Source of the DNA: Thermanaeromonas sp. C210
Lineage (GTDB): Bacteria > Bacillota > DSM-521 > Neomoorellales > Neomoorellaceae
Direction: 5' to 3'
Length of the DNA: 64,000 bases
Assembly (NCBI RefSeq): GCF_013167955.1
Contig: NZ_BLWF01000001.1
Location: 496,001 to 560,000, forward strand
The translations under genes were made by a program, and so were the position numbers. Under the pieces are notes generated by a model. It worked only from the letters and a program-made list of their open reading frames with translations, made no database searches and was not told the DNA's origin. Below, in pieces: positions 8,355 to 22,506 of this stretch. How positions within the stretch are numbered: position 1 is the first letter of the stretch; each line of letters starts with the position of its first letter.

Positions 8355-8439
8355 TGGTGCGGGCGAGAGGACTTGAACCTCCACGGGGGATACCCACCAG
8401 ATCCTAAGTCTGGCGCGTCTGCCGTTCCGCCACGCCCGC
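8355..8439 (-). tRNA. tRNA-Leu (anticodon UAG), left copy
   Basis: The minus strand reads a complete class II tRNA. The 7-bp acceptor stem is GCGGGCG / CGCCCGC, the discriminator is A, and CCA is encoded. The anticodon loop is CTTAGGA with anticodon TAG (plus-strand bases 8404-8406). The T-loop is GTTCAAGTC, and a long variable arm is present. It is identical over its whole length to the copy at 22422-22506. The two copies flank the integrated element. Sequence upstream of its 5' end (from 8440) belongs to the element and shows no clear promoter, so this copy may be silent. Confidence 0.95.
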
Positions 8440-8440
8440 C

Positions 8441-8522
8441 TGAGCCCTGGACCGCAAGGGCTCCAGGCACGGCTTCCAGGCGCTCCACCAGCACCACCAG
8501 ACTTCGCCTTTGCATATCTTCG
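8441..8522. other. Left-end element DNA without a gene
   Basis: This stretch between the left tRNA and the first element gene has no supported reading frame. Part of it (about 8490-8530, minus strand) resembles the end of the micro-ORF at 10520-10621 in degraded form. Confidence 0.5.
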
Positions 8523-8588
8523 TCATGGACTGAGGTTTCCCTTTTTCGTTATATGAAAATCCAACCCGTGGCTAAAAACTTTCGTCAT
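8523..8588 (-). pseudogene. Truncated copy of a duplicated micro-ORF
   Basis: The minus strand encodes 21 residues beginning MTKVFSHGLDFHITKKGN and then a stop. About 60 bp align with 10605-10667, where the same frame continues into a 33-residue ORF. The start codon overlaps the stop of the upstream membrane gene (ATGA), suggesting former translational coupling. The C-terminal part is lost or scrambled. Confidence 0.5.
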
Positions 8589-9244
8589 GGCCGAACAGTT
8601 TGCCCATTACGCACCCCAGCTATATATAGAACACAGGCGGTGATCGCTGATAAAGCCACAAGCCCACCCCATACCGCTGTGGCTAGTTTTCGTTTCTCCC
8701 AGGCAAGACGCGCTAGTTCGGACACTGCCGTTTCTTCAGCCTGACGCTCCACATCGGCCAGCTCTTTAGCAAGTAGCGCACCCTTATTGTTCGCTTCCTC
8801 CCACGCTTTAAAACCGTCAATTACCTCTCGCGGCAGGGACGCCACGGTTTTGGAGAGCAATGCTTGATTATACTTGTTCCGCGCTCCCTCGTTAAGCTCC
8901 TTTATTCGATAGCACTCGGCAAGCTGAGCGTTCAGCGTGTCTCTGTATTCTCTCTGACCTAACCTTTCCAGCACTTGTTCCTTTCTTTGCGCAATTTCCC
9001 CCTGTGAAGGAATGGGTCGCATCTCACCGCTGTACCACTTCTTTTCTTTTGCGTCGTTTCCATAGATTGCCACCCATGATTGCCCCGTCCAGCGATCCCG
9101 CAAGTGATGAACTTCAGCCGTCCACGCAATTCCCTGATAGGTGCCGGACTGCTTTTGCACTGGCCCCTTTTCCCACCTGAACGGCCACGCCAGCAGCAGC
9201 GCAATGCACACTATCGCTGGGAGCACCCACAGGTGCTTTCTCAC
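8585..9244 (-). CDS. Element protein: two membrane segments flanking a coiled coil
   Basis: 219 residues from a GTG at 9244, chosen because GGGGGTGG lies 5 bases upstream; a GTG at 9253 is also in frame. An N-terminal helix (WVLPAIVCIALLLAWPF) follows a short basic start. The middle (about residues 75-180) is charged and helix-prone and likely a coiled coil. A second hydrophobic helix (WGGLVALSAITACVLYI) lies near the C-terminus. The family is not recognised. The layout matches the neighbouring frameshifted gene at 9275-9896, and both begin with Met-Arg-Lys, so they may be distant paralogues. A role at the membrane or in particle entry is only a guess. Confidence 0.65.
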   Translation of the reverse strand: MRKHLWVLPAIVCIALLLAWPFRWEKGPVQKQSGTYQGIAWTAEVHHLRDRWTGQSWVAIYGNDAKEKKWYSGEMRPIPSQGEIAQRKEQVLERLGQREYRDTLNAQLAECYRIKELNEGARNKYNQALLSKTVASLPREVIDGFKAWEEANNKGALLAKELADVERQAEETAVSELARLAWEKRKLATAVWGGLVALSAITACVLYIAGVRNGQTVRP

Positions 9245-9274
9245 AGCAGCCACCCCCAGACTGTTCCACAGCCG

Positions 9275-9896
9275 CTATAGTGTGGTGCTTCTATCCTGCC
9301 CACTAGGCTTGCCGCCTTCGGCCTCTCCGGCTCTCTTGCGGAAGCCCCATACGAGTATCCAGTAGCCTAGAGACAGAAGGCAGTAGGCATACCCGACTAT
9401 GAAGATCCTGCCTAGATTTCCCCGATCAGCATCCACCCGGACCTTAAGTTTGGCGGGGTCAACCTGCGGCGCGGGAATAACTTCACGCGAAGGTACACTG
9501 CCCAACGCTTTTGCGGCCACTTCCTCGGCCTTCTTGTTTAGGGCCTCCCTTATTCTTTGCTGTTGTGTATACCACAAATCGTCATATGTAACCAGCCGAC
9601 CCGTATATAGCGACGGATAGCGCATACGCAAGATCGCAATTTTCTTCTCTAATAAGCTGCTCACGGTACCTTGCCGCTTCATCTGACTTAAGCCATGCCT
9701 CTTTAGCCGTCTCATAGGCATCCAGTGCTTGCCTGCGAGCTTCCTGGGCCTCTTTATACTTTTGCCACTCGAACACAGCAGCCCGGTAGCTATCGAGGTC
9801 CGCTCTATAAGCCCTTACAGCAGCCACATAGAAAGGCGCCCACAACCCTGCAACCACCACAGTAACAGCCAACCACACCGCAAAAGCCTTCCGCAC
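9275..9896 (-). pseudogene. Frameshifted two-TM coiled-coil protein of the element
   Basis: Frame one starts at a GTG at 9896 with GGAGG 8 bases upstream. It gives a basic N-terminus, a membrane helix (AVWLAVTVVVAGLWAPFYV), then a helical region with repeated Ala, Glu and Arg, and stops at 9582. A second frame (+1 relative) continues smoothly from about 9610 (VTYDDLWYTQQQRIREAL) to a second membrane helix (GYAYCLLSLGYWILVWGF) and stops at 9275. Joined, they give about 207 residues with the same layout as the 219-residue neighbour. No homopolymer slip site is visible. It may be a real mutation, a sequencing error, or less likely a programmed shift. Confidence 0.6.
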
Positions 9897-9913
9897 CCTT
9901 GCACACCTCCCGC

Positions 9914-10300
9914 CTACCGCTGCTTTGTGGCGGCAGCCTCTTTCTGGTGAACCCAGAACGCGAAACCCCTTCCCTGTTTCTCCGCAGTTGCCAATCCCAG
10001 GGCGCAAAGCACTATCAGAATGTTCTCGATTTCATACCTCTTCTTCCATGAAGTGTAGGAAGTCAGCCGCAACCCTTTGATCGCGCCACGCTCAACCTCG
10101 TCAAGTACACCGTCTATAGTGATCACTCGCCCTCGCACCGCCTCGTAGAGCTTTTGCACATTACTTGCCTGGACGACATCTTCAAAGGACTGGCGCTTGC
10201 TGTAGTGCTTAACGATGTATATCCCCGGCAGGTCCACAGGTTTAAGTACCTCGTGTTCGTTCCTTAAAGTCACCAAGCCCAGGCGAACCCTTTCCGGCAT
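9914..10300 (-). CDS. Element protein of unknown function
   Basis: 128 residues from the ATG at 10300, preceded by GGGGGAGGAGG. The product is soluble-looking with mixed alpha/beta composition. It contains TLRNEHEVLKPVDLPGIYIV and, near the C-terminus, a hydrophobic helix (IENILIVLCALGLATAE) in a likely winged-helix-like setting (RYEIENILIVLCALGLATAEKQGRG interrupted by charges). I do not recognise the family. The next gene starts about 18 bp downstream, so they form a leftward operon with the two membrane proteins. Confidence 0.6.
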   Translation of the reverse strand: MPERVRLGLVTLRNEHEVLKPVDLPGIYIVKHYSKRQSFEDVVQASNVQKLYEAVRGRVITIDGVLDEVERGAIKGLRLTSYTSWKKRYEIENILIVLCALGLATAEKQGRGFAFWVHQKEAAATKQR

Positions 10301-10381
10301 ACCCACCGCCTCCTCCCCCTAGCACCATGCTGTAATATTTCGACAAAACCCCAGAAATCTCCTTGCCCGTCCACGCTGTAG

Positions 10382-10414
10382 CAAAAAGGAAAGCCCTCCC
10401 GCTTGTGGGAGGGT
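10382..10414 (-). terminator. Rho-independent terminator (leftward)
   Basis: On the minus strand CCCTCCC pairs with GGGAGGG across a 6-nt loop, and CTTTCCTTTTT follows. It ends transcription from the 10667-11425 gene and its trailing micro-ORF before the next leftward gene. Confidence 0.8.
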
Positions 10415-10519
10415 CCAGGCAGGGATGCGGTAATGCGCTCGTGTGATATGGAGGTGCCTCTATCTGAATTTTAGTACAGATCACCACCGCGAGCAACTTT
10501 AGCTCTTTCCACAGGTGGG

Positions 10520-10621
10520 TTAAAGAAGCTCCTTTGCTATATCCTCGACGCTCATGTGCTTGTCCAGCCTCCGCTTGATCCACCGTTCAGCGGCCCGCCT
10601 GCTGTTTCCCTTTTTCACCAT
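10520..10621 (-). CDS. 33-residue micro-ORF, basic, possibly decayed
   Basis: It starts at an ATG at 10621 and encodes a basic, helix-prone peptide including AAERWIKRRLDKHMSVEDIA. The same frame is open upstream to an ATG at 10657 (MSKVFSHR) except for one TAA, and a truncated copy exists at 8523-8588. I infer an ancestral protein of about 45 residues that followed each leftward gene block. The ribosome site is weak. A short DNA-binding peptide would fit the composition but is not shown. Confidence 0.4.
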   Translation of the reverse strand: MVKKGNSRRAAERWIKRRLDKHMSVEDIAKELL

Positions 10622-10666
10622 GCGAAAATCTTACCTGTGGCTGAAAACTTTCGACATAGACGAACA

Positions 10667-11425
10667 TTATTCTCCCTTGAGGAAGGGCCTGTAATTGCTA
10701 TACCACCCTGTAGGCAAACCCGCTTCACGGCACACCTCGTAGTATTCCCTTATGGCCTGCTGTACCGAACCCGTTCGGGCCTTCCTAGCAATGCGCTCAA
10801 TTTCTGTCTGGGTGTACTCCCACTCTCTCACTATAATGGCCCCGTACAGCAGCCTGCTCTTATGCTGCCTTAGAAGGCTAAGGAACCGCTTTCTGAGCTG
10901 CTCTTCAGGCTTGCATATGGGGCACTCCTCATGGTAAAGGGCCACATGCTTCTTACAGGCTTTAAATGGCTGCCTTACACCATGCATAAAAGCCAGTGTG
11001 AGTTCGGCTGTAGCAGCCCCCAACTCATCCGCAGCCCTTACATGCCAACCGAAGGCGTTAGCACGGGGTAACTTAGCATAGAAAGGCAGCACTTGCAGCC
11101 TGTTCCACACAGCCCACAGCTCGGGGCAATCGCCGTTCAAGTAGGTTTCTAGCTCTACATCCTCCCTTCGAGGCAGCGCTTCCATCTTCCTCCTTCCCCT
11201 GCCACCAGCCAGGAAAAAGGCCAGGACGCATAAGGGCATGAGATAGCGGCTGGTCTCCTCTTCATCCGCCAGCCCAAGCCTTTGCACCAGGGAAGAGAGA
11301 CCCTCTTGCATGAGCCTGTTTACGAGCGGGACGGCGAAATGCCCCAGCTCCACACGCTGCCACCTTTCGCCAGACCAGAGATACTCTTGCACGCCTCTTG
11401 ACCTTATTTGGAAAAACAGCTCCAC
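10667..11425 (-). CDS. Element protein with a Cys/His zinc-type cluster
   Basis: 252 residues. A cluster CKKHVALYHEECPIC at about 163-177 has the spacing of a zinc-binding site. The N-terminal half contains AFFLAGGRGRRKMEAL and an acidic linker; the C-terminal part (WEYTQTEIERIARKARTGSVQQAI) looks like a helix-turn-helix. No family is recognised; a DNA-binding regulator or replication accessory is plausible. It is divergent from the HTH/PrimPol operon, with a shared 175-bp control region containing a GTCAC-ATGA-GTGAC inverted repeat 22 bp upstream of its start. Confidence 0.65.
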   Translation of the reverse strand: MELFFQIRSRGVQEYLWSGERWQRVELGHFAVPLVNRLMQEGLSSLVQRLGLADEEETSRYLMPLCVLAFFLAGGRGRRKMEALPRREDVELETYLNGDCPELWAVWNRLQVLPFYAKLPRANAFGWHVRAADELGAATAELTLAFMHGVRQPFKACKKHVALYHEECPICKPEEQLRKRFLSLLRQHKSRLLYGAIIVREWEYTQTEIERIARKARTGSVQQAIREYYEVCREAGLPTGWYSNYRPFLKGE

Positions 11426-11446
11426 TTGTCACACCGCCTTCATTCC

Positions 11447-11460
11447 GTCACATGAGTGAC
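11447..11460. promoter_or_regulatory. Inverted repeat in the divergent control region
   Basis: GTCAC and GTGAC form a perfect 5-bp inverted repeat around ATGA, just upstream of the leftward gene start. It is a candidate operator for the small HTH protein or the divergent zinc-cluster protein. Confidence 0.45.
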
Positions 11461-11533
11461 ATGACATTTAGTGCACAAGTGCAAGGGATTGATACACATT
11501 GCCTTGCTCCGATTGTAACGCATTGCCGAGTGT

Positions 11534-11563
11534 TTGTCAATTGTGAGGCGGTGCTGCTACAAT
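11534..11563 (+). promoter_or_regulatory. Promoter of the rightward element operon
   Basis: TTGTCA, an 18-bp spacer and TACAAT lie 38 bp upstream of the small HTH gene at 11601. Confidence 0.65.
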
Positions 11564-11600
11564 GTAGGCGAAAAATCTAATGCAGGAGGGTGAAGAGTAA

Positions 11601-11774
11601 ATGCGGCTACTGACACTGAAAGACCTGGAGAACCTGACCGGGATCAAGGCCCGGACCTGGCGCTTCTATGTCCAAACGCGGCGTCTGGAGGCACTCCGCG
11701 GGCCTCGGAACAAGTTAGTCGTCACCGAAGACGAGTTGAGGCGGTTCATACTGAGCCTTCCCAGGGCACGGTAA
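11601..11774 (+). CDS. Small HTH (MerR/excisionase-like) DNA-binding protein
   Basis: 57 residues from an ATG with GCAGGAGGG upstream. The sequence LTLKDLENLTGIKARTWRFY, then RRLEALRGPRNKLVV and TEDELRRFI, follows the HTH_17/excisionase pattern: a DNA-recognition helix after a short first helix, a basic wing, and a final helix with a conserved leucine or phenylalanine. Such proteins act as excisionases or as replication or copy-number regulators on integrative elements. It is first in the rightward operon, 53 bp before the replication gene, so either role fits. Confidence 0.75.
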   Translation: MRLLTLKDLENLTGIKARTWRFYVQTRRLEALRGPRNKLVVTEDELRRFILSLPRAR

Positions 11775-11827
11775 AACAAAAACCTCCGGCGGCGTGCTCC
11801 CGGAGGCGAGCGAGGAGGTGAAATACC

Positions 11828-13753
11828 ATGGGTTCTGACCATATTCTACCGGAAAATCCGGAATTCGCCAAGCTGCTCTTCGATACCTACCACGAAGCAG
11901 GCTGCGACCGTTTCATACTTATCCAGCCCGGTACCAAAGAGCCGCTCCGTGACCCAGAAACTGGAAGCTGGGCTGTCGTAGATGTCGCCACAGCCTTCCA
12001 GCACTGGTTAGGCGGCGGTAACGTCGCAATCGTGCCTACCTGGTACAACATGACAGTGCTTGACTTTGACCCGCTGCCCGGTTGCCGGATCAAGGTTTCC
12101 CACGTCCTGGAGGTCCTGGCAAGCGCCGGTATTACAAAAACGCCGATCGTTTTAAGCCCAGGGCAAAAGCATGAAGGTGGGATACACGTCCACCTTAAGG
12201 ACCCCGGTCCCGAATGGGACATCAAATTGCCAATATTTGACATTCCCAATCTGAACCATGTTGATGTTCGTCGGGGAAATTACATCTTGCTACCACCGAG
12301 CACCATTAATGGCAAAAAGTACCAGTGGTATGACGACGGTAAAGAGTTATGGGCACTTGGTACCACGGCCCTTGCGGAGGTTCCTAGAGCCTGGTTAGTC
12401 CCGGCGAAAGCGGAAGACGAACTGGAGATACCCACAGCGGGGGTGGACTTGGCAGCAGCCATCGAGAAATTGGCGCAGAAGTGCAGGTCAGGAGATGCGG
12501 AATTTGTGAAACAAGCCTTAACCGGAAGCTGGCCGGAAAAGCAGACTGACGGAATTGACCGCTCCGGCGCGGAATACAGGTTGGCCCGTATATGCGAAGA
12601 AGCGGGTTTAACCCCACAGGAAACGGCGGCGGTTGTGCGGGTTAGCGCGGTGCACCAGGCAAAATTTGGCAACCGGCAGGACGAGCGTGAACGGCTCAAA
12701 GCCGTCGTCGAGGCCGCATTCCAAGACCGTACTGAGCAGCAGTCGCCACCGCGAGTCTCAGTAGGCAAAATCTGGAGTGCGGATGAACTCGCTAGGGCCG
12801 ACCTACCCGAGCCCTCATGGCTGCTGCCCGGCCTGCTCCCCGCGCAAGGCCTAACGGTACTGGCAGGTAGGCCTAAGGTAGGTAAGTCCTGGCTGGCCCT
12901 GGACATTGCCTTAAGCCTGGCCGCGAGCAAACAAGTCCTGGGGATGAGGCCCCCGGCGGAAGCCCCTACCCTGTATATCAGCCTAGAGGATAACCCAAGG
13001 CGGCTAAAAAACCGCCTCGAAATGGCCCGCCTGCCTGCACCCCGAGACGGTTTACTCACCACATCGTTCCCGAATATGCCTGCGGCGCTAGAGGAGCTCG
13101 ACAAGCTTATCCCGCGCTATGGCCTCAAGCTAATCGCCGTTGACACCTGGGCTCGTTTTAGGCCTGCACGGCGTGGCAAGTCAAGCGACATTTACGCCCA
13201 GGATTACCAGGAAATTTCCGCCTTCAAGCAACTTCTGGATACGCACGGTATTGCGGGCCTGCTTGTGCACCACCTAAACCAGGCAAAGGACACAGAGCAT
13301 TGGACGGACCGAGTTCTGGGCACCACAGGCCTGATTGGAGGGCCGGATACCTTATTGGCACTGACACGGGCACCACAAGGGGCAGTCCTCCGGGCTATTG
13401 GCCGTGACGTGCCCGAAACCGAGCTGGCTGTGGAATTTAAAGATTACCGCTGGCACGTGCTCGGGGCCGCTGAGCAAGTGCACATGAGCGAGGCCCGCAA
13501 ACAGGTGCTGGAAGCCCTCCGGCTTTTGAACGGGGCCACAGCGCAGGAGGTAGCCGACTATACGGGTAAGCCACCCAGCACAGTGCGGCGTCTCTTGGCG
13601 CACCTCCATAGAGACGGGCTGGTTGTGAAGGTCAAAGGCCGCTACTATCCGGTAGAGGGACTTATCATAAAGCACCAGGGCAAAGTGGTCGAGGTGAATT
13701 TTGCACAATTAAATCCCACACGCGGTGAGGATAACACCAATGATGATAACTAA
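11828..13753 (+). CDS. PrimPol-AAA replication protein
   Basis: 641 residues with three parts. Residues about 5-190 form a bifunctional primase/polymerase (PrimPol) domain: VLDFDP near 78-83 supplies the catalytic acidic pair and GGIHVHLK near 117-124 the conserved histidine region. Residues about 330-530 are a RepA/RadA-like AAA ATPase with Walker A GRPKVGKSW (about 346-354), Walker B LIAVDTW (about 434-440) and a VHHLNQAK sensor region. Residues about 560-615 form a winged helix (VADYTGKPPSTVRRLLAHLH). This is the typical initiator-primase-helicase of plasmids, phage satellites and integrative elements. It is followed directly by an iteron-like region, so it probably recognises and opens that origin. 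Confidence 0.88.
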   Translation: MGSDHILPENPEFAKLLFDTYHEAGCDRFILIQPGTKEPLRDPETGSWAVVDVATAFQHWLGGGNVAIVPTWYNMTVLDFDPLPGCRIKVSHVLEVLASAGITKTPIVLSPGQKHEGGIHVHLKDPGPEWDIKLPIFDIPNLNHVDVRRGNYILLPPSTINGKKYQWYDDGKELWALGTTALAEVPRAWLVPAKAEDELEIPTAGVDLAAAIEKLAQKCRSGDAEFVKQALTGSWPEKQTDGIDRSGAEYRLARICEEAGLTPQETAAVVRVSAVHQAKFGNRQDERERLKAVVEAAFQDRTEQQSPPRVSVGKIWSADELARADLPEPSWLLPGLLPAQGLTVLAGRPKVGKSWLALDIALSLAASKQVLGMRPPAEAPTLYISLEDNPRRLKNRLEMARLPAPRDGLLTTSFPNMPAALEELDKLIPRYGLKLIAVDTWARFRPARRGKSSDIYAQDYQEISAFKQLLDTHGIAGLLVHHLNQAKDTEHWTDRVLGTTGLIGGPDTLLALTRAPQGAVLRAIGRDVPETELAVEFKDYRWHVLGAAEQVHMSEARKQVLEALRLLNGATAQEVADYTGKPPSTVRRLLAHLHRDGLVVKVKGRYYPVEGLIIKHQGKVVEVNFAQLNPTRGEDNTNDDN

Positions 13754-13754
13754 C

Positions 13755-13878
13755 CGAGCACTACGAGCAACATGAACAACATGAGCATAGCGATCAAGGC
13801 GATCATAGCGAGCAAAGCGAGCACCCCGAGCACAAGGCGAGCGGAGCGAGCAGAGCGAGCAAGGCGATCATAGGCGAG
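13755..13878. repeat. Array of 9-bp iteron-like repeats
   Basis: Starting just after the PrimPol-AAA stop, the unit GCGAGCA or GCGATCA recurs mostly every 9 bp, with two variable bases between units. The clearest run is 13798-13825, and another lies at 13841-13870. I count at least nine recognisable copies, some degenerate. The right half carries the complement of the unit (TGCTCGCC), giving inverted repeats. Iterons next to a rep gene are typical of theta-replication origins; function here is inferred. Confidence 0.7.
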
Positions 13879-13965
13879 CGCTCGCCTTGTGCTCGCCCTA
13901 CCCTGGGAGGGGGCGAGCACTGTGGAAGCTAGATTTTTCAAGGCTTCCAGGGCTCAGTGCTCGCC
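13827..13965. other. Two large inverted repeats, candidate replication origin
   Basis: A perfect 17-bp inverted repeat pairs 13827-13843 (CGAGCACAAGGCGAGCG) with 13879-13895 around a 35-bp loop made of 9-bp repeats. A second stem pairs GGCGAGCACTG at 13912-13922 with CAGTGCTCGCC at 13955-13965, and inside it TGGAAGC pairs with GCTTCCA around an AT-rich loop. The segment lies between the replication gene and the next operon genes, encodes nothing convincing, and together with the iterons looks like an origin or a control site for copy number. Confidence 0.6.
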
Positions 13966-14031
13966 TGCTCGCCCTGCTCGCCCACATATATAGGTATTAT
14001 GTAAACTGCCAGAAAGGGGGTTTGTCCGGCT

Positions 14032-14331
14032 ATGGCAATAGTTACCAGGTATTACCCGAACGTCTATCCTGAGGAGGGCGGTGTGTTCTGTCCCCTTATG
14101 ACCTGCGACTTCTGCGGGGAGGTAATTGAGGAGCACGGGAACGCTACCTGGCCGTGGGATGAACCAGGGCGGGTTTACTTCACCCACAAGCACTGCCAGC
14201 GCGCTTTTGAGAGACCCCGCCCGGGCGTGTGGCTTGCGGAGGAACTCGATGTGTTTATCAGCCACCTGGTGGCGAATAGCAAGCTCGCAAACGCTCATAA
14301 GGGGGTGAAACGACCATGCGCTACTTCGTAA
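14032..14331 (+). CDS. Small zinc-finger-like element protein
   Basis: 99 residues from an ATG with GAAAGGGGG upstream. CPLMTCDFCG near the N-terminus and THKHC about 25 residues later supply a C-x4-C-x2-C / H-x-H-C set that could bind zinc. The C-terminal half is helical. No family is recognised. The next gene overlaps its last 16 bases, so the two are probably translationally coupled. Confidence 0.6.
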   Translation: MAIVTRYYPNVYPEEGGVFCPLMTCDFCGEVIEEHGNATWPWDEPGRVYFTHKHCQRAFERPRPGVWLAEELDVFISHLVANSKLANAHKGVKRPCATS

Positions 14332-14705
14332 ACCGGCCCTCGAGCCCGTTCCATGAGGCAGTCCAAGCGCTTGAGCGTTTAGCCGGGGAGGAGGGCCTGG
14401 AAATGGCAGAGCGGGCCTTTGCCACAGCCGTGTGGGAAAAGCGGAGAGAAGCTTTTGCCAAACGCCTCGGTGTGAAGCCAACTGCTGGGCACGTATGCCT
14501 TAACAGGCTGGTGAAGGGCCATTGCAAGGGCACAGGGCTCATGTTTCCGAAATGCTTCTGGCTACCGGTGGTCAATGTTCACGTCTCGCTATGGCTTAGA
14601 GACGGGAAGCCACACGTCTATGTTTCTCAGCCTTACGCCCTTACCCTCAAGGACATGCGGGCACTCGTGCAGTTTTGTGATCGCACGGCCTTGACGCTGC
14701 CGTGA
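14316..14705 (+). CDS. Element protein of unknown function
   Basis: 129 residues with GGGGGTGA upstream of the ATG. The N-terminal half is helical and basic (ALERLAGEEGLEMAERAFA). The C-terminal half is beta-rich and contains the pair C-x8-C (HVCLNRLVKGHCKG) and VVNVHVSLWLRDGKPHVYVS. I recognise no domain. It lies in the rightward operon between two zinc-motif proteins. Confidence 0.55.
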   Translation: MRYFVNRPSSPFHEAVQALERLAGEEGLEMAERAFATAVWEKRREAFAKRLGVKPTAGHVCLNRLVKGHCKGTGLMFPKCFWLPVVNVHVSLWLRDGKPHVYVSQPYALTLKDMRALVQFCDRTALTLP

Positions 14706-14786
14706 GCGCCGGGAGCTGGCATTTCCCTGGGAGCACGCTGCTTATTGAGATAACACGCCGGGAAGGCTAGGAGGTGCTAATGTAAC

Positions 14787-14891
14787 ATGCTGGATGCTCT
14801 GTTAATCGTTGGGTGGGTGTTGGCAATGGCAGCCTGCTACCCATACCCGCTCAAGGCGGTGGCCTGCATTATGCGATGCGAAAGGAGGTGA
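14787..14891 (+). CDS. Small membrane peptide
   Basis: 34 residues from an ATG with AGGAGG 12 bases upstream. Most of it is one hydrophobic helix (LLIVGWVLAMAACYPY) with a basic C-terminus (RCERR). Its stop codon is embedded in the ribosome site of the next gene (AAAGGAGGTGA), a normal operon arrangement. Function unknown; a holin-like or antisense-spurious origin cannot be excluded. Confidence 0.45.
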   Translation: MLDALLIVGWVLAMAACYPYPLKAVACIMRCERR

Positions 14892-14897
14892 GGCGGA

Positions 14898-15248
14898 TTG
14901 TCTCTCAGGCTCACTCTGGAGCCACGCGCAAAGGGAGCTCACTGGATTGTCTGCCACTTCTGCGAGAAGCCCGCTGCCCGGATACACCTGCGGCCCGACG
15001 GTGAAGGCGGCTGGGAGATCCTTCCATCCTGTGGAACATGCGACCCCGGCGGTTACTGGATACCCCTCCAGGACTTCGCCCAGCGACCGCTGGAATGGCT
15101 CGGCGCTTTGCTGGAAGTGAACCCCGCTCAGGCGTTGGAGTTGCTTCGCTGGGCCAGCGGCAAGGTGCGACTGCTTGAACGGGCAGCCAGGGGCGAGGAC
15201 GTTGGTATGACGCGCGAGGCCGTGCTGGAATGGCTGGGGAAGCGTTAG
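14898..15248 (+). CDS. Zinc-motif element protein
   Basis: 116 residues from a TTG at 14898 following AAAGGAGGTGAG. CHFCEKPA and CGTCDPGG, about 26 residues apart, form a CxxC...CxxC zinc ribbon in the first half. The second half is helical and Leu/Ala-rich. The family is not recognised. A small antisense frame ends over its stop codon. Confidence 0.6.
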   Translation: MSLRLTLEPRAKGAHWIVCHFCEKPAARIHLRPDGEGGWEILPSCGTCDPGGYWIPLQDFAQRPLEWLGALLEVNPAQALELLRWASGKVRLLERAARGEDVGMTREAVLEWLGKR

Positions 15249-15445
15249 AGGCCGCGCCTCCGCCGCCACATCTCCAGCTTCCTGGCAAGGGCGCTGCCGT
15301 AGCGTGACCTGCGGCGGCTCCCTCCCCCGCCTGTGCGAGGCTTGCCGGTCCAGAGCAGAATATCGCCATGCTTAAACTTCGGCAGGCAGCTCTCAAGCCC
15401 CTCCAAGGGCGTGCCTGCGTAAGGCGAAGGCTTGAGTTTAAGCAG
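15245..15445 (-). CDS. Possible small antisense-strand gene, basic C-terminus
   Basis: On the minus strand a 66-codon frame runs from a CTG at 15445 (GGGAGGG 6 bases upstream) or a TTG at 15406 to a TAA at 15245. It reads sensibly: a proline-containing N-terminus, FKHGDILLWTGKPRTGGGG, then a very basic tail ending KLEMWRRRRGL. It has no ATG. It would be convergent with the gene at 14898 and divergent from the one at 15535, filling an otherwise empty 286-bp gap. Confidence 0.4.
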   Translation of the reverse strand: MLKLKPSPYAGTPLEGLESCLPKFKHGDILLWTGKPRTGGGGSRRRSRYGSALARKLEMWRRRRGL

Positions 15446-15503
15446 AGGCTATCCCTCCCTTTTGCGGGCTAGGGCGATTATACCACAATGCCGAATGGCG
15501 TGC

Positions 15504-15509
15504 TATAAT
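15504..15509 (+). promoter_or_regulatory. -10 box upstream of a zinc-ribbon gene
   Basis: A perfect TATAAT lies 26 bp before the ATG at 15535. No good -35 box is visible (TACCAC at 17-bp spacing). It implies a second start of transcription inside the rightward block. Confidence 0.5.
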
Positions 15510-15534
15510 GTTGACCAAAGGGACGTGGTTGATT

Positions 15535-15978
15535 ATGCCTGTGATGGAAAATTGTGTAAAGCTCTATGCAAATACGTTTCGTGAACACCACAGCCGGGGC
15601 CGCATTGAGGGCGGCTGGACCACGGTGGGTTATGTCCTATGGCCGGATAAAGTCAACCTGGTGTGGGCCAGGCGTGCTCAGGTGGTGCGGCGGGTGCGGC
15701 TGCCGCTCACCTGCCCGAATGGCGGGTGGGTGCGCTGGTGGCTGTGTCCCACCTGTGGAAGACAGACGCCCACGCTCTATCTTCCACCTGGGGCCATAGC
15801 CTTCGCGTGCCGTCACTGCCTTAAGCTCACTTACGGCCTGTGGAAGCGGAACGGCTACTACCGCTGGCCGAAAGATGCAGGTCTGTGGCTAAAACAGTTC
15901 ATGAGACGTGCGGGGGAGGTGCAAAGGCATGCGGCAGGAGATGGAAAAGGCGAGGCGGGAGGCCGCTGCTGCGATTGA
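15535..15978 (+). CDS. Zinc-ribbon protein common on phages and plasmids
   Basis: 147 residues from the ATG at 15535 (AAAGGGA upstream); an ATG at 15508 overlaps the -10 box and is unlikely. The core WLCPTCGRQTPTLYLPP followed by AFACRHCLKLTYG is a paired CxxC zinc ribbon with aromatic residues in between. I know this pattern from many small phage and mobile-element proteins of unknown function. The C-terminus is basic. The next gene starts inside its last 50 bases. Confidence 0.65.
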   Translation: MPVMENCVKLYANTFREHHSRGRIEGGWTTVGYVLWPDKVNLVWARRAQVVRRVRLPLTCPNGGWVRWWLCPTCGRQTPTLYLPPGAIAFACRHCLKLTYGLWKRNGYYRWPKDAGLWLKQFMRRAGEVQRHAAGDGKGEAGGRCCD

Positions 15979-16198
15979 GCGGGCCGTCCCGCAGGTATTA
16001 CAAGCGCTGGCGGAGCAGGCGGCCGGAGGAGACCGCAAAGCCCGGCGGCTGCTAGAAGAAGTCTTGCGCAATGCGAAAGGAGGCGGCGAGCATGTTCGAG
16101 TTTCTGGAAAATATCGGCAAGCGGATCAAGGACGTTGCAACACGGGTTGCCCAATCGGGGACGGCAAAGCGCGTGAGTGCGTGGCTGCGCTCTATTAG
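15929..16198 (+). CDS. Small helical protein overlapping its neighbours
   Basis: 89 residues from an ATG with GGGGGAGGTG upstream. The first 55 residues are a charged helix (MRQEMEKARREAAAAIERAV, then LLEEVLRNAK); the remainder reads through the start of the 1097-residue gene in another frame and looks less natural. It may therefore be a shortened gene whose original end was lost. The helical part recalls small-terminase-like or scaffolding-type helices, but that is only a resemblance. Confidence 0.45.
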   Translation: MRQEMEKARREAAAAIERAVPQVLQALAEQAAGGDRKARRLLEEVLRNAKGGGEHVRVSGKYRQADQGRCNTGCPIGDGKARECVAALY

Positions 16199-19100
16199 CG
16201 CCCCGCGTTACGAAGCTAAGACACCGGACGAGCTTTACAAGCAGGTCCGTAAAGAGGCCGAGGCGTACCGGAAGGCGCAGGTGGAAACACTTACCAGAGC
16301 CATTGAACGCCTGCCCGCACGGTTGCGCTCCGTTGCATACGGGGCCTTGACTGTTCCCGATTATGCGGCCTTTGGCGCTTTCCGCTCGCGGGAGGTCGGG
16401 CAGAAGCTCATAGAGCGGGGCGCACTTACCCCCCAGGCCGAGAAGACGGCCCGTGCGGTTGGTGAGGTGCTTGGGGTTTACCTCCCATTCGCTGGGGCAT
16501 CCCGGCTGCTGCGGCCCGTAACGCGCATTATAGCCGCCGAAAGCCCAAAACTCGGTCGGATAGCTGCCGCCATCCTAGAGGGCGCTCTTGGCGGCGCGTG
16601 GCTGGGCGTTGAAGAAAGCAAGCGCAAGGGGCAGCCCACGGCCCAATGGGTGCAGCGGGAAGCGGTTTCCGGTGCTCTATGGGCAGGTGCCGGTGCAGCC
16701 GCAGGCGAAAAGCTCATGCAGGCCGGGAGCAAGCTCTTGCAGCGTGCTGGCGGTAGCCCGGCCTTAGAGCAGATCAGGCGCGTGATGCATGAATGGGTGA
16801 TTGGCCGCAAAGTGGCCGAAAACAAGCCCAGGATGTTCGAGAGCCTCTTGCAGAAGGCGGCAGGCGGGGATGAGGGCCTCTTGAACCTCGCCCATCTAGC
16901 CAGGGCCTGGCTCAAGGACCCGGAATTCCTTGACCCGCAGCACTGGCGCACTACCTTGGCGAGCAGGATTTCCCAGGTGGAGCAGAAGGCTGCGCAGGCG
17001 GGCAACCTGGAAAGCGCCGCCTTCCTGCGCTCGCTACGGGAAAAGCTCCCCACTATGGAGGATGCCACCATCCAGCGGCTGGCTAGGGCCACCCAGGACG
17101 TGCATAGCCTCAGCGAGCGTCTGAACCGAGTGCTTACCCGCCTGGGTCTTGAAGAAACCTGGCAGCACCCACAAGAAATTTACGTACCGCGCTACGTCGC
17201 TGAGACGGCCCTGGCGCAGCGTGGCGCACAACCCACGGGCTCGGCGGCGGGCGCTATGCTGGCCCGCAGGCCGCACCTTTTCAGTCCGCACCAACTGCCC
17301 AGGCAGTTGAGCCTGGAAGAAGCGCTCGTTAAGTTCAAGCCGCAAGAACTGACGCTGGACGTGTCGAAAACGTTGCCCTTGCGAATTTCTGAGCACCAGC
17401 GGCTATTGGAAAACGTGAAATTCCTCAACCGCATCCGTGCACTGGCCTCGCGGGAGTATGCGCCTGGGGTGAAGGAGATCACACTGCCGGGCGAACTACG
17501 CTCCCTGGAGGCACGGCGTATCAAAGAGCTGGGCCAGCAGGCTGCCCGAGGCGCTAAAGCCGCTGCCAAAGCCTTAGAGCGGGAGACGGGGCACCTGTAC
17601 CTACCGGCGGACGCCGCGAAGTGGTTGGAGGGGCGCTTGGCAGCCATGTATCATTCTCCTGGGCCTGCTGGTAGGGCCTGGCAGGAGGTAATGCGCCAGA
17701 CCACGCGGCTGAAAGTCTACCTGCCCTGGGATTGGGTAAGCCAGATGGTGTTCGGCGCTGTCGGTCCGGCCAAGGACTTTGTGACCGCCCTCAACCCCGT
17801 AGCACGCTTCGCCTATGCATGGCGCACAAGACAGACTGGTGCGGAGGCTTTGCAGAAAGTCTCACCCGAGCTGGCGAAGCTGGTGGAGGCTGGCCTTGAT
17901 ATAGGCGGCAGTGATTGGCACCGCAGGACGCTCGAGGCAGCCACAAAGCCCGTGCGGGAGCCTATCGCCAGGCTGTGGCGCACAATCGAGAGCCGCGTTT
18001 TAGAACCTGTGGAAACAATGGCCTTCGGCCCTACGATAGAGATGCGCACCGGCCTGGCCCTGGACCTGTTCAAGCGCTTCACTCAGCAGGGTAAGCCGGA
18101 GAGCGAGGCCGCGAAGACGGCGGCGCACCTGGCTAACTTCCTTACGGGCAGCGTTATGACGGAGATGCTTGACCCCACAGCTCAAAAGGCCTTGCGGTAT
18201 TTCTTCCTCGCGCCTAAGTGGCTCACCCACACCCTGCAATTGCCCTTCCGGGCGGCGGGATTGGTCACGGAGCCAGCGCTATCCCCTGAAGCCCGAGAGC
18301 TAGCGCAGCGGTTCCTAGCAGGTTATCTCATGAACAACGTGCTGGCGAATTTTATACTCGCCAATGCCTTGAACAGGCGCATTAACAACGGGCGCAATAT
18401 ATGGGAGAACCCTCCCGGATACCGGCACTTGGTGGACATCACGCCCTTGGTTGGGCTCGGACCGCAGGGGCAAAGACAATACTTTGATCCCTGGTTCTTC
18501 TGGCGGGACTACCCGAGGTTGCTCCAATACATCATGGGCGAGGTAAGGCCCGAGCGCTACTTTGTGTACAAGCTCGCGCCTCTGGTGGCGGTAGCTGCGG
18601 ACGCAGCAGGGTATGACCTCTCCACGGGGCAAGTACGGCCTATGGGCCTTGAGGAGCGTATACGAGCCACTGTGAAGGATATGGTCAGTATGCTGCTCCC
18701 CGCCGGTACGTTGGAAATACCCGGTGCTGGTCTCTCGGCTATGGGCGGCTGGTCCGCAACGCCTACAGGCAGGTTCGATTTACCCAGGCAGATAATGGAG
18801 TGGGTTGGGCTGCGGACGTTCCCGGGGCAGCGCCCCGTTCAGGGCCGCGGCACCCGATTGTTGCCCGAGGAGCAGGTGAGAATGCGGGAAGCCATGCGCC
18901 AGGGCGTTCTTGGGGTGCGGCGTGACAGTAAGGGCGTAATCCGGTTTGCGCTTACCAAAGACTGGTACTATTGGCTGGCCAGGGTACTCGGCAAGGCGCC
19001 CAGCGAAGAGGAAACAATCGAGGCCGTGCTTGATGTGCTCGGGCTACCGCCCGATGTAAGGGATAAGGCACTACGGAATATTTTCTCGCCGGAGAGCGTG

Positions 19101-19385
19101 GAGCTGTTCCGCAAATACTTCAGGGCGAACCCGACACCCAGGGGCCTGTGGATGATCCGCACTATTCTTGCCCAGGACAACCATGCGGACAGGGAGCGGG
19201 TGTTACAACGGCTGCTCTCGCAGGATAACCTAAACTGGCTGGCCGAAAAGCTGGGAAGATGGCCCACAGTGGAGGATGTGCTGCGTTATCACAAGACCAT
19301 GCTGCAACGGGAACTGCCAGACGTAGCAGCCCTGGGCACGGGGGCCACGGCGAGGCGGGCCTTACCACAGTTGTTAGGGAGGTGA
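16092..19385 (+). CDS. 1097-residue protein of unknown function, possibly transferred with the element DNA
   Basis: This is the largest gene of the element, starting at the ATG at 16092 (AAAGGAGGCGG upstream). The N-terminal 100 residues are basic helices. Residues about 120-210 are Ala/Gly-rich amphipathic segments. The middle is mostly helical with many Arg and Gln residues. Around residues 702-715 is YFFLAPKWLTHTLQ, then a hydrophobic stretch near 741-761 (FLAGYLMNNVLANFILANAL) and WFFWRDYPRLLQYI. The C-terminal 200 residues contain helical repeats with KAPSEEETIEAVLDVLGLPP and RWPTVEDVLRYH. No enzymatic motif is evident. Size, composition and the FFLAP-type segment recall large polyvalent or internal virion proteins that enter the host with DNA. 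That is inference. Confidence 0.7.
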   Translation: MFEFLENIGKRIKDVATRVAQSGTAKRVSAWLRSISAPRYEAKTPDELYKQVRKEAEAYRKAQVETLTRAIERLPARLRSVAYGALTVPDYAAFGAFRSREVGQKLIERGALTPQAEKTARAVGEVLGVYLPFAGASRLLRPVTRIIAAESPKLGRIAAAILEGALGGAWLGVEESKRKGQPTAQWVQREAVSGALWAGAGAAAGEKLMQAGSKLLQRAGGSPALEQIRRVMHEWVIGRKVAENKPRMFESLLQKAAGGDEGLLNLAHLARAWLKDPEFLDPQHWRTTLASRISQVEQKAAQAGNLESAAFLRSLREKLPTMEDATIQRLARATQDVHSLSERLNRVLTRLGLEETWQHPQEIYVPRYVAETALAQRGAQPTGSAAGAMLARRPHLFSPHQLPRQLSLEEALVKFKPQELTLDVSKTLPLRISEHQRLLENVKFLNRIRALASREYAPGVKEITLPGELRSLEARRIKELGQQAARGAKAAAKALERETGHLYLPADAAKWLEGRLAAMYHSPGPAGRAWQEVMRQTTRLKVYLPWDWVSQMVFGAVGPAKDFVTALNPVARFAYAWRTRQTGAEALQKVSPELAKLVEAGLDIGGSDWHRRTLEAATKPVREPIARLWRTIESRVLEPVETMAFGPTIEMRTGLALDLFKRFTQQGKPESEAAKTAAHLANFLTGSVMTEMLDPTAQKALRYFFLAPKWLTHTLQLPFRAAGLVTEPALSPEARELAQRFLAGYLMNNVLANFILANALNRRINNGRNIWENPPGYRHLVDITPLVGLGPQGQRQYFDPWFFWRDYPRLLQYIMGEVRPERYFVYKLAPLVAVAADAAGYDLSTGQVRPMGLEERIRATVKDMVSMLLPAGTLEIPGAGLSAMGGWSATPTGRFDLPRQIMEWVGLRTFPGQRPVQGRGTRLLPEEQVRMREAMRQGVLGVRRDSKGVIRFALTKDWYYWLARVLGKAPSEEETIEAVLDVLGLPPDVRDKALRNIFSPESVELFRKYFRANPTPRGLWMIRTILAQDNHADRERVLQRLLSQDNLNWLAEKLGRWPTVEDVLRYHKTMLQRELPDVAALGTGATARRALPQLLGR

Positions 19386-19392
19386 TCTCCAA

Positions 19393-19707
19393 GTGAGCAG
19401 GCGAACGAGCACCAACCTGGCCGTAGTAGACAATCAAAGCACTGCCCTTTCACCGGAGGTGCTTCAGGAGAAGCGCCAGGCAATAATTGCCAGAGCTGTG
19501 GAGGTGGCAGATGAAGTTTTGGGAGCCCTGCTTGAGGAGGCCAGAGCCGGGAATGTGCAGGCGGCTAAACTGATCATGCAGGTGGCGGGGCTGCTCCAAG
19601 GTGGTGGGCCGGTAGTGGCTACCCAGATCAACGTGCCGCAAATAACAATCAGCCCGGAAGAGCTTGCGGAGCTGGAAAGGGGCCTGCGGGAGCGCGGGGC
19701 AATATAA
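19393..19707 (+). CDS. Small helical protein, terminase-small-subunit-like
   Basis: 104 residues from a GTG at 19393, 7 bp after the 1097-residue gene; its ribosome site (GGGAGGTGA) overlaps that stop. Helices (EVADEVLGALLEEARAGN, VQAAKLIMQVAGLL) are followed by TQINVPQITISPEEL. The combination of an Ala-rich helix pair with an INVPQ-type strand is seen in small phage proteins near packaging genes, including terminase small subunits. No large terminase lies nearby, so the assignment is weak. Confidence 0.5.
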   Translation: MSRRTSTNLAVVDNQSTALSPEVLQEKRQAIIARAVEVADEVLGALLEEARAGNVQAAKLIMQVAGLLQGGGPVVATQINVPQITISPEELAELERGLRERGAI

Positions 19708-19920: not shown

Positions 19921-20184
19921 TTACACTACACCACCATGTAAAGTTCCCAAGTCGCATAAGTCAATATACTCCTCGACGTCGATCAGCCTATCAATTAGGT
20001 TTTGCAGCCTTCCCTCACTGTGGTCGTTTACGTAACACCAAATGTGGCTGTTTTCTTCGCTCCTTAGTTCTCTCCAAAACAGTAACGCCAGTTCCGCTGC
20101 CCTTTCCTCCAACTTTTCCCTCACTCTCTCGATGGTCACCCCCTTCTTCACTTCCTGGGTGACTTGGACTACAGCATTGGACAT
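19921..20184 (-). CDS. Small acidic element protein
   Basis: 87 residues with an excellent AAAGGAGG site 8 bases before the ATG. Helical and charged (IERVREKLEERAAELALLFW), ending in an acidic stretch (LIDVEEYIDLCDLG). No family is recognised. It has its own strong promoter (TTGACA-17-TACAAT at 20233-20261, minus strand), divergent from the XRE/HicBAB operon. A lysogeny-type or antitoxin-type small regulator is possible but unsupported. Confidence 0.6.
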   Translation of the reverse strand: MSNAVVQVTQEVKKGVTIERVREKLEERAAELALLFWRELRSEENSHIWCYVNDHSEGRLQNLIDRLIDVEEYIDLCDLGTLHGGVV

Positions 20185-20261: not shown

Positions 20262-20273
20262 CACTTTTGTAAT

Positions 20274-20281
20274 CGTTAACG
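20274..20281. promoter_or_regulatory. Palindrome between divergent promoters
   Basis: CGTTAACG is an 8-bp palindrome lying between the leftward and rightward promoters, 22 bp upstream of the rightward -35. A candidate operator for the XRE protein encoded next to it. Confidence 0.4.
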
Positions 20282-20302
20282 GTAAAAACTTATTCAATGC
20301 TG

Positions 20303-20331
20303 TTGCTAAAATGCTCAAAGACGGTTACAAT
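20303..20331 (+). promoter_or_regulatory. Promoter of the XRE-hicBAB operon
   Basis: TTGCTA at 20303-20308, a 17-bp spacer and TACAAT at 20326-20331, 24 bp before the XRE start codon. Confidence 0.65.
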
Positions 20332-20355
20332 GGTAGTGAAAGGAGGAAATCCGCT

Positions 20356-20577
20356 ATGCGAATAGAATCGAGGCTATCTCACATTCTAGGAGCTCAGCGA
20401 TTAAAGATGAGTGAAGTCGCTAGGCGGACAGGTATTGGGAAATCGACACTGCTCAGGCTTTATCACGACAGAGCTGAGGGAATACGATTTGACGTTTTGG
20501 CTAAGCTATGTAAAGTCCTTAACTGCCAACCCGGCGATTTGCTCGTCTACGTGCCTGACGAGGAGCAAGTCTGCTAA
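20356..20577 (+). CDS. XRE-family (Cro/CI-type) regulator
   Basis: 73 residues from the ATG at 20356 with AGGAGGAAA upstream. MSEVARRTGIGKSTLLRLYH is a Cro/CI helix-turn-helix, followed by FDVLAKLCKVLNCQPGDLL, the conserved helix-four/five block of short XRE regulators. It heads an operon with HicB-like, HicA and HicB proteins. It could repress that operon, since neither HicB-like protein has a visible DNA-binding domain, or control the switch between integrated and active states. Confidence 0.82.
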   Translation: MRIESRLSHILGAQRLKMSEVARRTGIGKSTLLRLYHDRAEGIRFDVLAKLCKVLNCQPGDLLVYVPDEEQVC

Positions 20578-20651
20578 TGGGCTTGCCTCACAGGCTCGTG
20601 AGCTTGAGCCCACACCGGCTAAACCCAAAGGCGAAGGAGGTTGTTACTGTT

Positions 20652-20852
20652 ATGCGCTTTACGGCTGTATTGACGAAAGAGGGCCAATGGTATGTAGCTA
20701 AAGCTGTGGAGGTAGAGGTAGCGAGCCAAGGCAGGACCATCGAAGAGGCCCTTGCGAACTTGAAGGAGGCCCTGGAGCTTTATTTCGAGGACGAGCCTTT
20801 GCCGGAGGCCCTGCCTGAACCTATAATCGCCACGGTTGAGGTAGCATTATGA
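20652..20852 (+). CDS. HicB-like partial antitoxin (first copy)
   Basis: 66 residues from the ATG at 20652 (GAAGGAGG upstream). FTAVLTKEGQWYVAKAVEVEVASQGRTIEEA is the degenerate RNase H-like HicB fold, with the helix EEALANLKEALELYFED, and no C-terminal DNA-binding domain. Its stop overlaps the hicA start (ATGA). HicB proteins occlude the HicA active site. Confidence 0.78.
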   Translation: MRFTAVLTKEGQWYVAKAVEVEVASQGRTIEEALANLKEALELYFEDEPLPEALPEPIIATVEVAL

Positions 20853-21073
20853 GCCCTAAACTGCCTTTGGTATCCGGTCGGGAGGTCATCAAAGCCCTTA
20901 CAAAGGCGGGGTTTCGCCAGGCAAGCCAGCGAGGGAGCCATGTGAAAATGCGTCACCCCAGCGGCAGAACGGCCATAGTGCCCTTGCATGATGAGCTTGC
21001 TCCTGGTACGTTACGCTCAGTTCTCAAGCAGGCGGGCCTCACTGTGGAGGAGTTCACTGCGCTTTTGCGCTAG
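20849..21073 (+). CDS. hicA: HicA-type mRNA interferase toxin
   Basis: 74 residues. VSGREVIKALTKAGFRQASQ, then GSHVKMRHP carrying the catalytic histidine, and LAPGTLRSVLKQAGLTVEEF match the double-stranded RNA-binding-like HicA fold throughout its usual length. HicA cleaves mRNA when free of HicB. It is flanked on both sides by HicB-like genes. The intact active site suggests the module is functional and helps keep the element in the host. Confidence 0.88.
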   Translation: MSPKLPLVSGREVIKALTKAGFRQASQRGSHVKMRHPSGRTAIVPLHDELAPGTLRSVLKQAGLTVEEFTALLR

Positions 21074-21087
21074 GAGGTCAAGCGTCA

Positions 21088-21315
21088 ATGACCGAATACC
21101 TCATTGTGATTGAGCGGGCAGGCAATAACTTTTCCGCCTATTCCCCTGACCTGCCGGGCTGCGTGGCTACAGGTGCAACGCTTGAAGAGGTAAGGGCTAA
21201 CATGGCCGAAGCCATACGTATGCACATCGAGGGCTTGAAGGAAGACGGCCTTCCCATTCCACAACCTGCGACCATAGCTGAGCGCGTAAGTGTGGACCTG
21301 GGCCTGCTCGCCTAA
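21088..21315 (+). CDS. hicB: HicB-family antitoxin (second copy)
   Basis: 75 residues starting 14 bp after hicA. YLIVIERAGNNFSAYSPDLPG, then CVATGATLEEVRANMAEAIR and HIEGLKEDGLPIP are the classic HicB N-terminal domain motifs. It lacks a DNA-binding tail. It is much closer to canonical HicB than the gene before hicA, so this is probably the cognate antitoxin. Confidence 0.85.
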   Translation: MTEYLIVIERAGNNFSAYSPDLPGCVATGATLEEVRANMAEAIRMHIEGLKEDGLPIPQPATIAERVSVDLGLLA

Positions 21316-21356
21316 CAAATACGGCCTTCTAGAAGCCTCTACAAAGGGCGCAAAAT

Positions 21357-21392
21357 GGCCGGGAGGTATAGAAGTATCCCCCGGCCTTTTTC
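21357..21392 (+). terminator. Rho-independent terminator after hicBAB
   Basis: GGCCGGG pairs with CCCGGCC and is followed by TTTTTC, about 40 bp after the second HicB stop. Confidence 0.85.
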
Positions 21393-21435
21393 ATGGCCTT
21401 ATAGCGCCTTCTAGAGGCCGCTTTTGGATTAGTGC

Positions 21436-22371
21436 CTAAAGCCTGCGCTTAGCCCTTTTGCCTAATTGCTGGAGTTTTGCCACAGGTGTGGCCTTCTCAT
21501 GGATCTCTTTCACGTCTTCTTGCAGGTAGCGCACGTACCTGCGGGTCATGGCAAGGTCCTTATGGCCTAATATGCGCTGCAAAGCGAACGGGTCATTGGC
21601 CTCTTTCAAAAACTCAATGGCGAAGGTGTGCCGCAGGCCGTAGGGCGTGACCTTAACACCCGCTTTCTGGCAGTATTCCCTCACCCTTGCAGCCCACTGG
21701 CTACGGTCTAAAGCCTTCCCGTTTTCGGTAGCGAACAAGGGCACATCCTCACCCCACCATGTGGGCCGTACTTTGAGGAACTTCGCCAACGCTTGCGCGG
21801 TGAAAGGCGAAAGGACCAGAGTCCTTCCCACACGGGTCTTAGCTACTTCCGGGCGTATGTACAGCTCGCGGGCTTCGAGGTTTAAATCGCCTACCCTCAC
21901 CCGGAATAGCTCTCCGGGTCTTGCTCCGGTGTCTATTTGCACCAGCAAGAGGCAGTAATCCCTTAAGCCTGCATAGCTCCGCTTGTCCGGTTGCTGGAGC
22001 AGCTTCTTCAAGGCTTCTAAAGGCACGTGCCTTATGCGGTTTAAGTCTTCCTTCGCTGGCCTTATCCCTGCCACAGGGTTGGCGGGAAGGTAGCCTTGGC
22101 TTACGCACCAGTTGAAGAACGCTTTGAGGTGGCGCAAGCGGATGTTGCGGTACCCAGGAGAGCAAGGCTGGCTGAAGTAGCGTATAACGGCTTTCTGCAC
22201 GGCCTCGTAGGTGTTGAGGTTGGGGCTGGCCTTGAGGAAGGTCTCCACATGGAAGCGGTAGTTCTCCAGCGAGGCGGGCACTATACCATCAGCCTGCTTG
22301 GCAAGAAGGAACTCCTCCAGGGCTTGGGATAAGTCCAGCACCTTGGGGCTAAGTTTCGCAATCCTGCCCAT
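21436..22371 (-). CDS. Tyrosine-recombinase integrase of the element
   Basis: 311 residues from the ATG at 22371. Residues about 12-100 form the SAM-like core-binding domain. The catalytic domain shows R151 in DTGARPGEL, K179 in AKTRVGR, R247 in YGLRHTFA, H270 in LGHKDLAMT, and the nucleophile Y279 in TRRYVRY. The usual first histidine of the HxxR box is tyrosine (Y244), a known variation. A longer frame upstream reads through the tRNA and is not real. It sits 51 bp from the right tRNA-Leu, in the same direction. Its ribosome site GAGGAGG is the 3' arm of the tRNA terminator-like hairpin. It should catalyse integration and excision at tRNA-Leu. Confidence 0.93.
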   Translation of the reverse strand: MGRIAKLSPKVLDLSQALEEFLLAKQADGIVPASLENYRFHVETFLKASPNLNTYEAVQKAVIRYFSQPCSPGYRNIRLRHLKAFFNWCVSQGYLPANPVAGIRPAKEDLNRIRHVPLEALKKLLQQPDKRSYAGLRDYCLLLVQIDTGARPGELFRVRVGDLNLEARELYIRPEVAKTRVGRTLVLSPFTAQALAKFLKVRPTWWGEDVPLFATENGKALDRSQWAARVREYCQKAGVKVTPYGLRHTFAIEFLKEANDPFALQRILGHKDLAMTRRYVRYLQEDVKEIHEKATPVAKLQQLGKRAKRRL

Positions 22372-22378
22372 AAAAACA

Positions 22379-22412
22379 GCCTCCTCAGCAACACTAGATT
22401 TCTTGAGGAGGC
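22379..22412 (-). terminator. tRNA-Leu terminator hairpin that doubles as integrase ribosome site
   Basis: On the minus strand GCCTCCTCA pairs with TGAGGAGGC, as after the left tRNA copy, but the following tract is GTTTTTATG, i.e. interrupted and ending in the integrase start codon. GAGGAGG in the 3' arm is 8 bases from that ATG, so folding would hide the ribosome site and termination would be leaky. Confidence 0.65.
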
Positions 22413-22421
22413 AAAGCCTTG

Positions 22422-22506
22422 TGGTGCGGGCGAGAGGACTTGAACCTCCACGGGGGATACCCACCAGATCCTAAGTCTGGCGCGTCTGCCGTTCCGCCAC
22501 GCCCGC
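22422..22506 (-). tRNA. tRNA-Leu (anticodon UAG), right copy
   Basis: Same 85 bp as the left copy, including encoded CCA; anticodon bases are 22471-22473. Its 5' flank is chromosomal and contains a probable promoter, so this is likely the expressed copy. Downstream lies the element integrase. Confidence 0.95.

Follow-up and report, generated by a model that had tools for sequence, protein, structure and literature searches.

Few sites receive mobile elements as commonly as tRNA genes. In the usual model, as outlined in the Islander report (PMC4383910), an incoming element restores the tRNA gene that it splits and leaves a displaced fragment. Kazlauskas et al. (2018) described integrated elements with AEP primases, mostly in tRNA genes, of which class iii is cryptic and lacks phage and conjugation genes (PMC5862659). 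Here we describe a tRNA-bounded element of Thermanaeromonas sp. C210 (Neomoorellaceae), located in a 64,000-nt stretch that we call the window (assembly GCF_013167955.1, contig NZ_BLWF01000001.1, positions 496,001-560,000, forward strand). The element combines a primase with an integrase and tRNA direct repeats, and holds no recognisable phage or conjugation genes; because cryptic AEP/PrimPol elements have already been published, it belongs to a known kind. An earlier reading of this DNA (the original prediction) had called the family undescribed, which can stand at most for the present sub-family. It is distinguished by the conserved layout of that sub-family together with a complete, apparently relocated tRNA: in contrast to the usual model, two complete copies of the tRNA bracket the element, while the ancestral operon lacks it. 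On balance, we favour the view that the locus is an integrative element with site-specific insertion, belonging to a sub-family of its own among the small PrimPol elements of tRNA genes, and that its lineage delivered tRNA-Leu(UAG) to this site, the original gene being lost.

Four features define the ends of the element, with tRNA genes called by ARAGORN:

8355-8439, minus strand: left (distal) complete tRNA-Leu(UAG) gene
22422-22506, minus strand: right (integrase-side) complete tRNA-Leu(UAG) gene
8300-8354, minus strand: hairpin 3' of the left tRNA, related to the right-hand hairpin
22372-22421, minus strand: hairpin between the right tRNA and the integrase, common to the integrase locus L026 of genome G004

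A complete tRNA gene and a tyrosine recombinase gene thus stand together at the element border. The two tRNA genes, 85 bp each and 14,067 bp apart, are 100% identical, as originally predicted, but the direct repeat runs on beyond the 85 bp first noted: an ungapped comparison gives 140 bp at 94% identity, and BLAST 135 bp at 95.6%. It consists of 85 identical tRNA bases followed by ~50 bp of diverged hairpin with a T run; homology extends from the 5' end of the tRNA to this T run, and mismatches are confined to the hairpin 3' of the tRNA. TTGACG and TGCTAAGCT precede the right tRNA and form a candidate promoter picked out by eye, and no promoter-like site was found upstream of the left tRNA.

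Comparison with 12 sampled genomes of the same family places the native gene elsewhere. In these genomes tRNA-Leu(UAG) comes last in a cluster of rdgB, Gly, Arg, His, Gln, Lys and Leu, the contig of one (G005) showing Gln-Lys-Leu only. The cluster is present in C210 between rdgB and tig, but it ends at Lys. The Lys-tig stretch contains no N and no detectable tRNA-Leu remnant, local alignment being no better than with shuffles. Besides the two window copies, a genome search with the repeat returned the leucine tRNAs CAG and CAA, and the copies at the element ends appear to be the only two tRNA-Leu(UAG) genes in this genome, which is 99.4% complete in draft contigs. To the right of the element lies ykvI, and in seven relatives that have this gene no tRNA-Leu occurs nearby. 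The original prediction did not foresee that the tRNA-Leu site is not ancestral here; since the relatives hold the tRNA at another locus, the rdgB cluster, the comparison with an empty tRNA-Leu site that it proposed is inapplicable in its simple form.

The flanking hairpins provide a clue to how the gene arrived. In L026, also from Thermanaeromonas, a hairpin lies between tRNA-Leu(UAA) and the integrase, and hairpins of the same type follow both window copies. Native tRNA-Leu(UAG) copies are followed by unrelated terminators and have no such hairpin, and the chromosomal site therefore looks element-derived. It would seem that elements of this family delivered the site, and probably the tRNA too, by a route that we infer. 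CUA codons are in ordinary use, at 4.6% of the leucine codons of 20 flanking genes, and in standard decoding CUA is read by the UAG anticodon only; the tRNA-Leu(UAG) gene should thus be essential. More tentatively, and with somewhat less than even confidence, we propose that small PrimPol elements can carry complete tRNAs in their attachment sites and so relocate them, an essential tRNA-Leu(UAG) surviving here only as an attachment site.

An ISNCY-family transposase gene (22591-23979) starts 85 bp outside the right tRNA and may have taken part in rearranging the locus. Its position, together with the clean loss at the old cluster, agrees with an account in which tRNA-Leu(UAG) moved by another route, such as transfer with the adjacent insertion sequence or recombination, and the element merely followed its target. 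We regard this account as a serious minority possibility, against which stands the element-type hairpin found after both window copies and on none of the native ones.

The wider family was collected with the element integrase as bait, and relatives were delimited by repeats of the integrase-adjacent tRNA (n = 10 loci). Integrase-related loci occur in Thermanaeromonas, Ammonifex, Desulfovirgula, Thermincola, a metagenome-assembled genome (MAG) of Fermentithermobacillaceae, other Bacillota and an Armatimonadetes MAG, among others, with relatives mostly in thermophilic Firmicutes. Nine of the ten delimited relatives, 5.6-8.6 kb long, agree in most or all parts of a common layout: tRNA, integrase, cargo, a primase on the opposite strand, a helix-turn-helix (HTH) gene, usually a divergent zinc-finger gene facing the far repeat, and the tRNA repeat. 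In the tenth, L263 (3.6 kb), the layout is lost. The window element conforms to the layout and carries two extra parts, the region of a 1104-aa gene and, at its far end, a block of four genes. In L239 the integrase, the PrimPol (33%) and a 252-aa protein (32%, 6e-25) are arranged as in the window element, and L005, a reduced 4.5-kb relative at tRNA-Cys in genome G007, shares with it the 252-aa protein (51-52%), XRE regulator (65%), integrase (36%), a PrimPol fragment and part of a 68-nt motif.

Among 49 further proteins of related elements, Pfam and PHROGs gave no virion, large-terminase or relaxase match; recognised were regulators, a resolvase, a CGNR zinc finger and one weak match to a terminase small subunit (in L031). 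Judged by gene content, the layout is found again in distant hosts, with no virion or conjugation genes that could be recognised, and this recurrence of a compact layout indicates a stable architecture and not a single decay event. That the locus is a prophage or an integrative and conjugative element (ICE) that decayed by loss of its virion or transfer genes is therefore very unlikely in our view: its main genes remain intact, and the compact layout persists across many relatives that show no virion genes, although the integrase clade is common to a prophage-like region of G007 and the G007 relative is clearly reduced.

Several loci bear on the family in other ways. L234, L257, L246, L228 and L244 carry a conserved 115-166-aa gene of no known family beside the primase, which may be a further marker of the element family; a 129-aa window protein was considered as its counterpart, but the alignment was not convincing. 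Elsewhere in the genome that holds the window element, L036 (7913-8369; G000:C1, about 793 kb) holds an integrase remnant beside tRNA-Leu(CAA) with HicAB genes near, and is probably another decayed element. A same-clade integrase (42%) adjoins tRNA-Asn and tRNA-Met in L034 (G000:C6, 3,147 bp).

Attachment sites across the family bear on the complete tRNA copies. In most delimited relatives the repeat runs from tRNA position 22-28, in the anticodon stem, to the 3' end, and because repeats begin there we place the crossover in the anticodon region. The second tRNA copy is complete or nearly so in the window element, L228, L242 and L263. In L005 the distal copy comprises a nearly complete tRNA-Gly and tRNA-Cys, a hairpin of the same kind and a little over 30 codons from the start of a second integrase gene; the locus (11400-16240) reads as two tandem elements at tRNA-Gly/tRNA-Cys, one of them reduced to the start of its integrase. 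Tandem insertion of this type is one route by which a complete second tRNA copy can arise.

The recombination and replication functions of the window element are encoded or marked by:

21436-22371, minus strand: tyrosine integrase, 311 aa (PF00589, 5.4e-27)
8530-8597, no strand: 68-nt motif, copy 1
10599-10666, no strand: 68-nt motif, copy 2, at the 3' end of the 252-aa gene
11601-11774, plus strand: HTH_17 excisionase-like protein, 57 aa (PF12728, 1.8e-5, just under the curated cut-off)
11828-13753, plus strand: PrimPol-AAA_25-winged-helix replication protein, 641 aa
13783-13990, no strand: 9-bp GAGC/GATC iterons and inverted GCTCGCC repeats, candidate replication origin

The integrase starts directly after the right-hand hairpin and keeps the catalytic residues R151, K178, R247, H270 and Y279, with Y244 at the usual place of the first His, as in its relatives. 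The copies of the 68-nt motif are 79% alike and enclose the four-gene block (g1-g4); a core of ~40 nt recurs near the distal tRNA of L005 (about 11798-11842), which suggests an attachment-arm site of the integrase or a cassette boundary. The 641-aa protein combines PrimPol (PF09250, 1.7e-11) and AAA_25 (PF13481, 2.2e-28) domains with a C-terminal HTH. Behind its gene, 9-bp spaced repeats occupy 13783-13873, and the region holds 16 GAGC/GATC words in 310 bp versus 2.9 in shuffles, marking it as a putative replication origin.

Searches of the element proteins against Pfam, PHROGs (where HK97 terminase matches phrog_9) and PADLOC returned no capsid, portal, tail, terminase, relaxase or type IV secretion system match, an absence of phage structural and conjugation genes that is defined by hidden Markov model searches only. 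Some 13 genes had no match in these collections. The predicted inventory was borne out, including the intact integrase, the PrimPol-AAA protein with its iteron-like region, the XRE regulator, the HicBA-type module and the missing structural and transfer genes. The idea of an integrative element with its own replication gene likewise held, with relatives of the same layout in thermophilic Clostridia.

How such an element spreads can be read in two ways. The ATPase part of the 641-aa protein is 35% like that of the replication protein of an 8.3-kb Caldicellulosiruptor bescii plasmid, the iterons lie 3' of the replication gene, and no phage-type gene was found. These features fit an integrated plasmid or mobilisable element spread by conjugation from an origin of transfer alone or by natural uptake, as for ICETh2 with ICETh1 in Thermus; a precedent is ICETh2 itself, an 11.3-kb tRNA-integrated PrimPol element of a thermophile (PMC9751324). 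No relaxase match was obtained in the element with Pfam or PHROGs, and we consider this reading doubtful.

The second possibility is a phage satellite resembling the phage-inducible chromosomal islands (PICIs), self-replicating and packaged by a helper phage. Size, tRNA-sited integrase, own PrimPol replication and repressor all fit; a prophage-like region in G007 is served by a same-clade integrase (50% identical), and the terminase-small-subunit match in L031, though weak, points the same way. In contrast, neither Pfam nor PHROGs revealed a terminase small subunit or any gene for capsid remodelling or interference in the window element, and this genome has no HK97-type large terminase (PF03354), the only type searched, although a helper need not be resident. 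A PICI-like satellite is unlikely here, if not negligibly so. Of the original prediction, the lack of detectable packaging and transfer genes is supported; the satellite and its helper remain hypothetical, the search for a resident HK97-type terminase having been negative. The G007 integrase points one way and the small-plasmid likeness the other, and as sequence comparisons they do not decide between satellite and mobilised element.

Under the favoured reading, a site-specific integrative element that delivered its tRNA, the integrase would excise and insert the element at the tRNA anticodon stem-loop, PrimPol-AAA would start replication of the excised circle at the iterons, and the XRE regulator and HicBA would retain the element in the cell. 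Spread would need a helper phage, a conjugative element or natural uptake. An element with a whole tRNA gene in its attachment site would have brought tRNA-Leu(UAG) here, and subsequent loss of the original cluster copy would have made the attachment site an essential gene.

Several points weigh against this scenario. The element is known from sequence, and the insertion sequence right beside it could have moved the tRNA first. Delivery of the tRNA is suggested by the likeness of the flanking hairpins and by the complete second copies of relatives. The claim is further limited by host type, draft contigs and the 12-relative sample. If essential tRNAs are indeed relocated in this way, elements would influence genes at the core of translation and could not easily be lost, and host survival would be tied to an attachment site. 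Independently of the tRNA, the family offers a compact, recurring thermophile gene set for asking how elements free of transfer genes spread.

The remaining genes of the window element are:

8585-9253, 9275-9721, 9582-9899 and 9914-10306, minus strand: g1-g4 four-gene block, no family match
10667-11425, minus strand: 252-aa putative zinc-binding protein (C..H......C..C)
14032-14331, 14316-14705 and 14898-15248, plus strand: three small genes without family, two of the three cysteine-rich
15535-15978, plus strand: zinc-ribbon-like protein, with a relative in L224 (48%)
16071-19385, plus strand: 1104-aa orphan protein
19393-19707, plus strand: 104-aa protein; L224 has a relative (60% over 52 aa) adjacent to its own zinc-ribbon gene
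19921-20184, minus strand: 87-aa protein without family, partial match in the L005 element
20356-20577, plus strand: XRE-type regulator (HTH_26, 9.9e-23)
20577-21315, plus strand: HicB-like gene, HicA toxin (4.1e-22) and second HicB-like gene

Three of the four g1-g4 genes encode membrane-like segments. The 252-aa gene, divergent from HTH-PrimPol, is a marker of the element family. For the 1104-aa protein, no relative was found in Pfam, PHROGs, NCBIfam, phages, plasmids, IMG/VR or GTDB contigs, nor among 398 genomes of the phylum; matches in PDB were weak (best E 0.14) and disregarded, and AlphaFold2 without relatives gave a predicted local distance difference test score (pLDDT) of 39. A resemblance to large phage 'polyvalent' proteins has no support and is not claimed. 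A 96-aa frame (15929-16198) that overlaps this gene at its start is weakly similar to the 104-aa protein encoded downstream (E 0.009, 41% over 46 aa), and the two are possibly paralogues.

A literature search on Moorella mobile elements found nothing. Among the closest known systems, PICIs are alike in size, integrase, regulator and own replication protein, but unlike them the window element has no detected terminase small subunit, capsid-remodelling gene or helper. Tycheposons of Prochlorococcus and Methylophilaceae, proposed as satellites, share a border tRNA, a tyrosine recombinase and the lack of full transfer genes; they differ in size (4-200 kb), metabolic cargo and marine or freshwater hosts (PMC10872708, PMC11389934), and the likeness is one of resemblance only. 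ICETh2 of Thermus thermophilus HB27 matches in size (about 11 kb), tRNA site, tyrosine recombinase, PrimPol and thermophilic host, whereas it works with ICETh1 in transjugation and the portion of its description at hand reports no tRNA relocation (PMC9751324); likened by description, it may be seen as a functional analogue. The cryptic AEP elements (PMC5862659) are alike in AEP primase, integrase, direct repeats, frequent tRNA targets and the lack of phage or conjugation genes, and compared by description the window sub-family departs from that class in its fixed layout, its divergent zinc-finger gene and its complete, apparently relocated tRNA.

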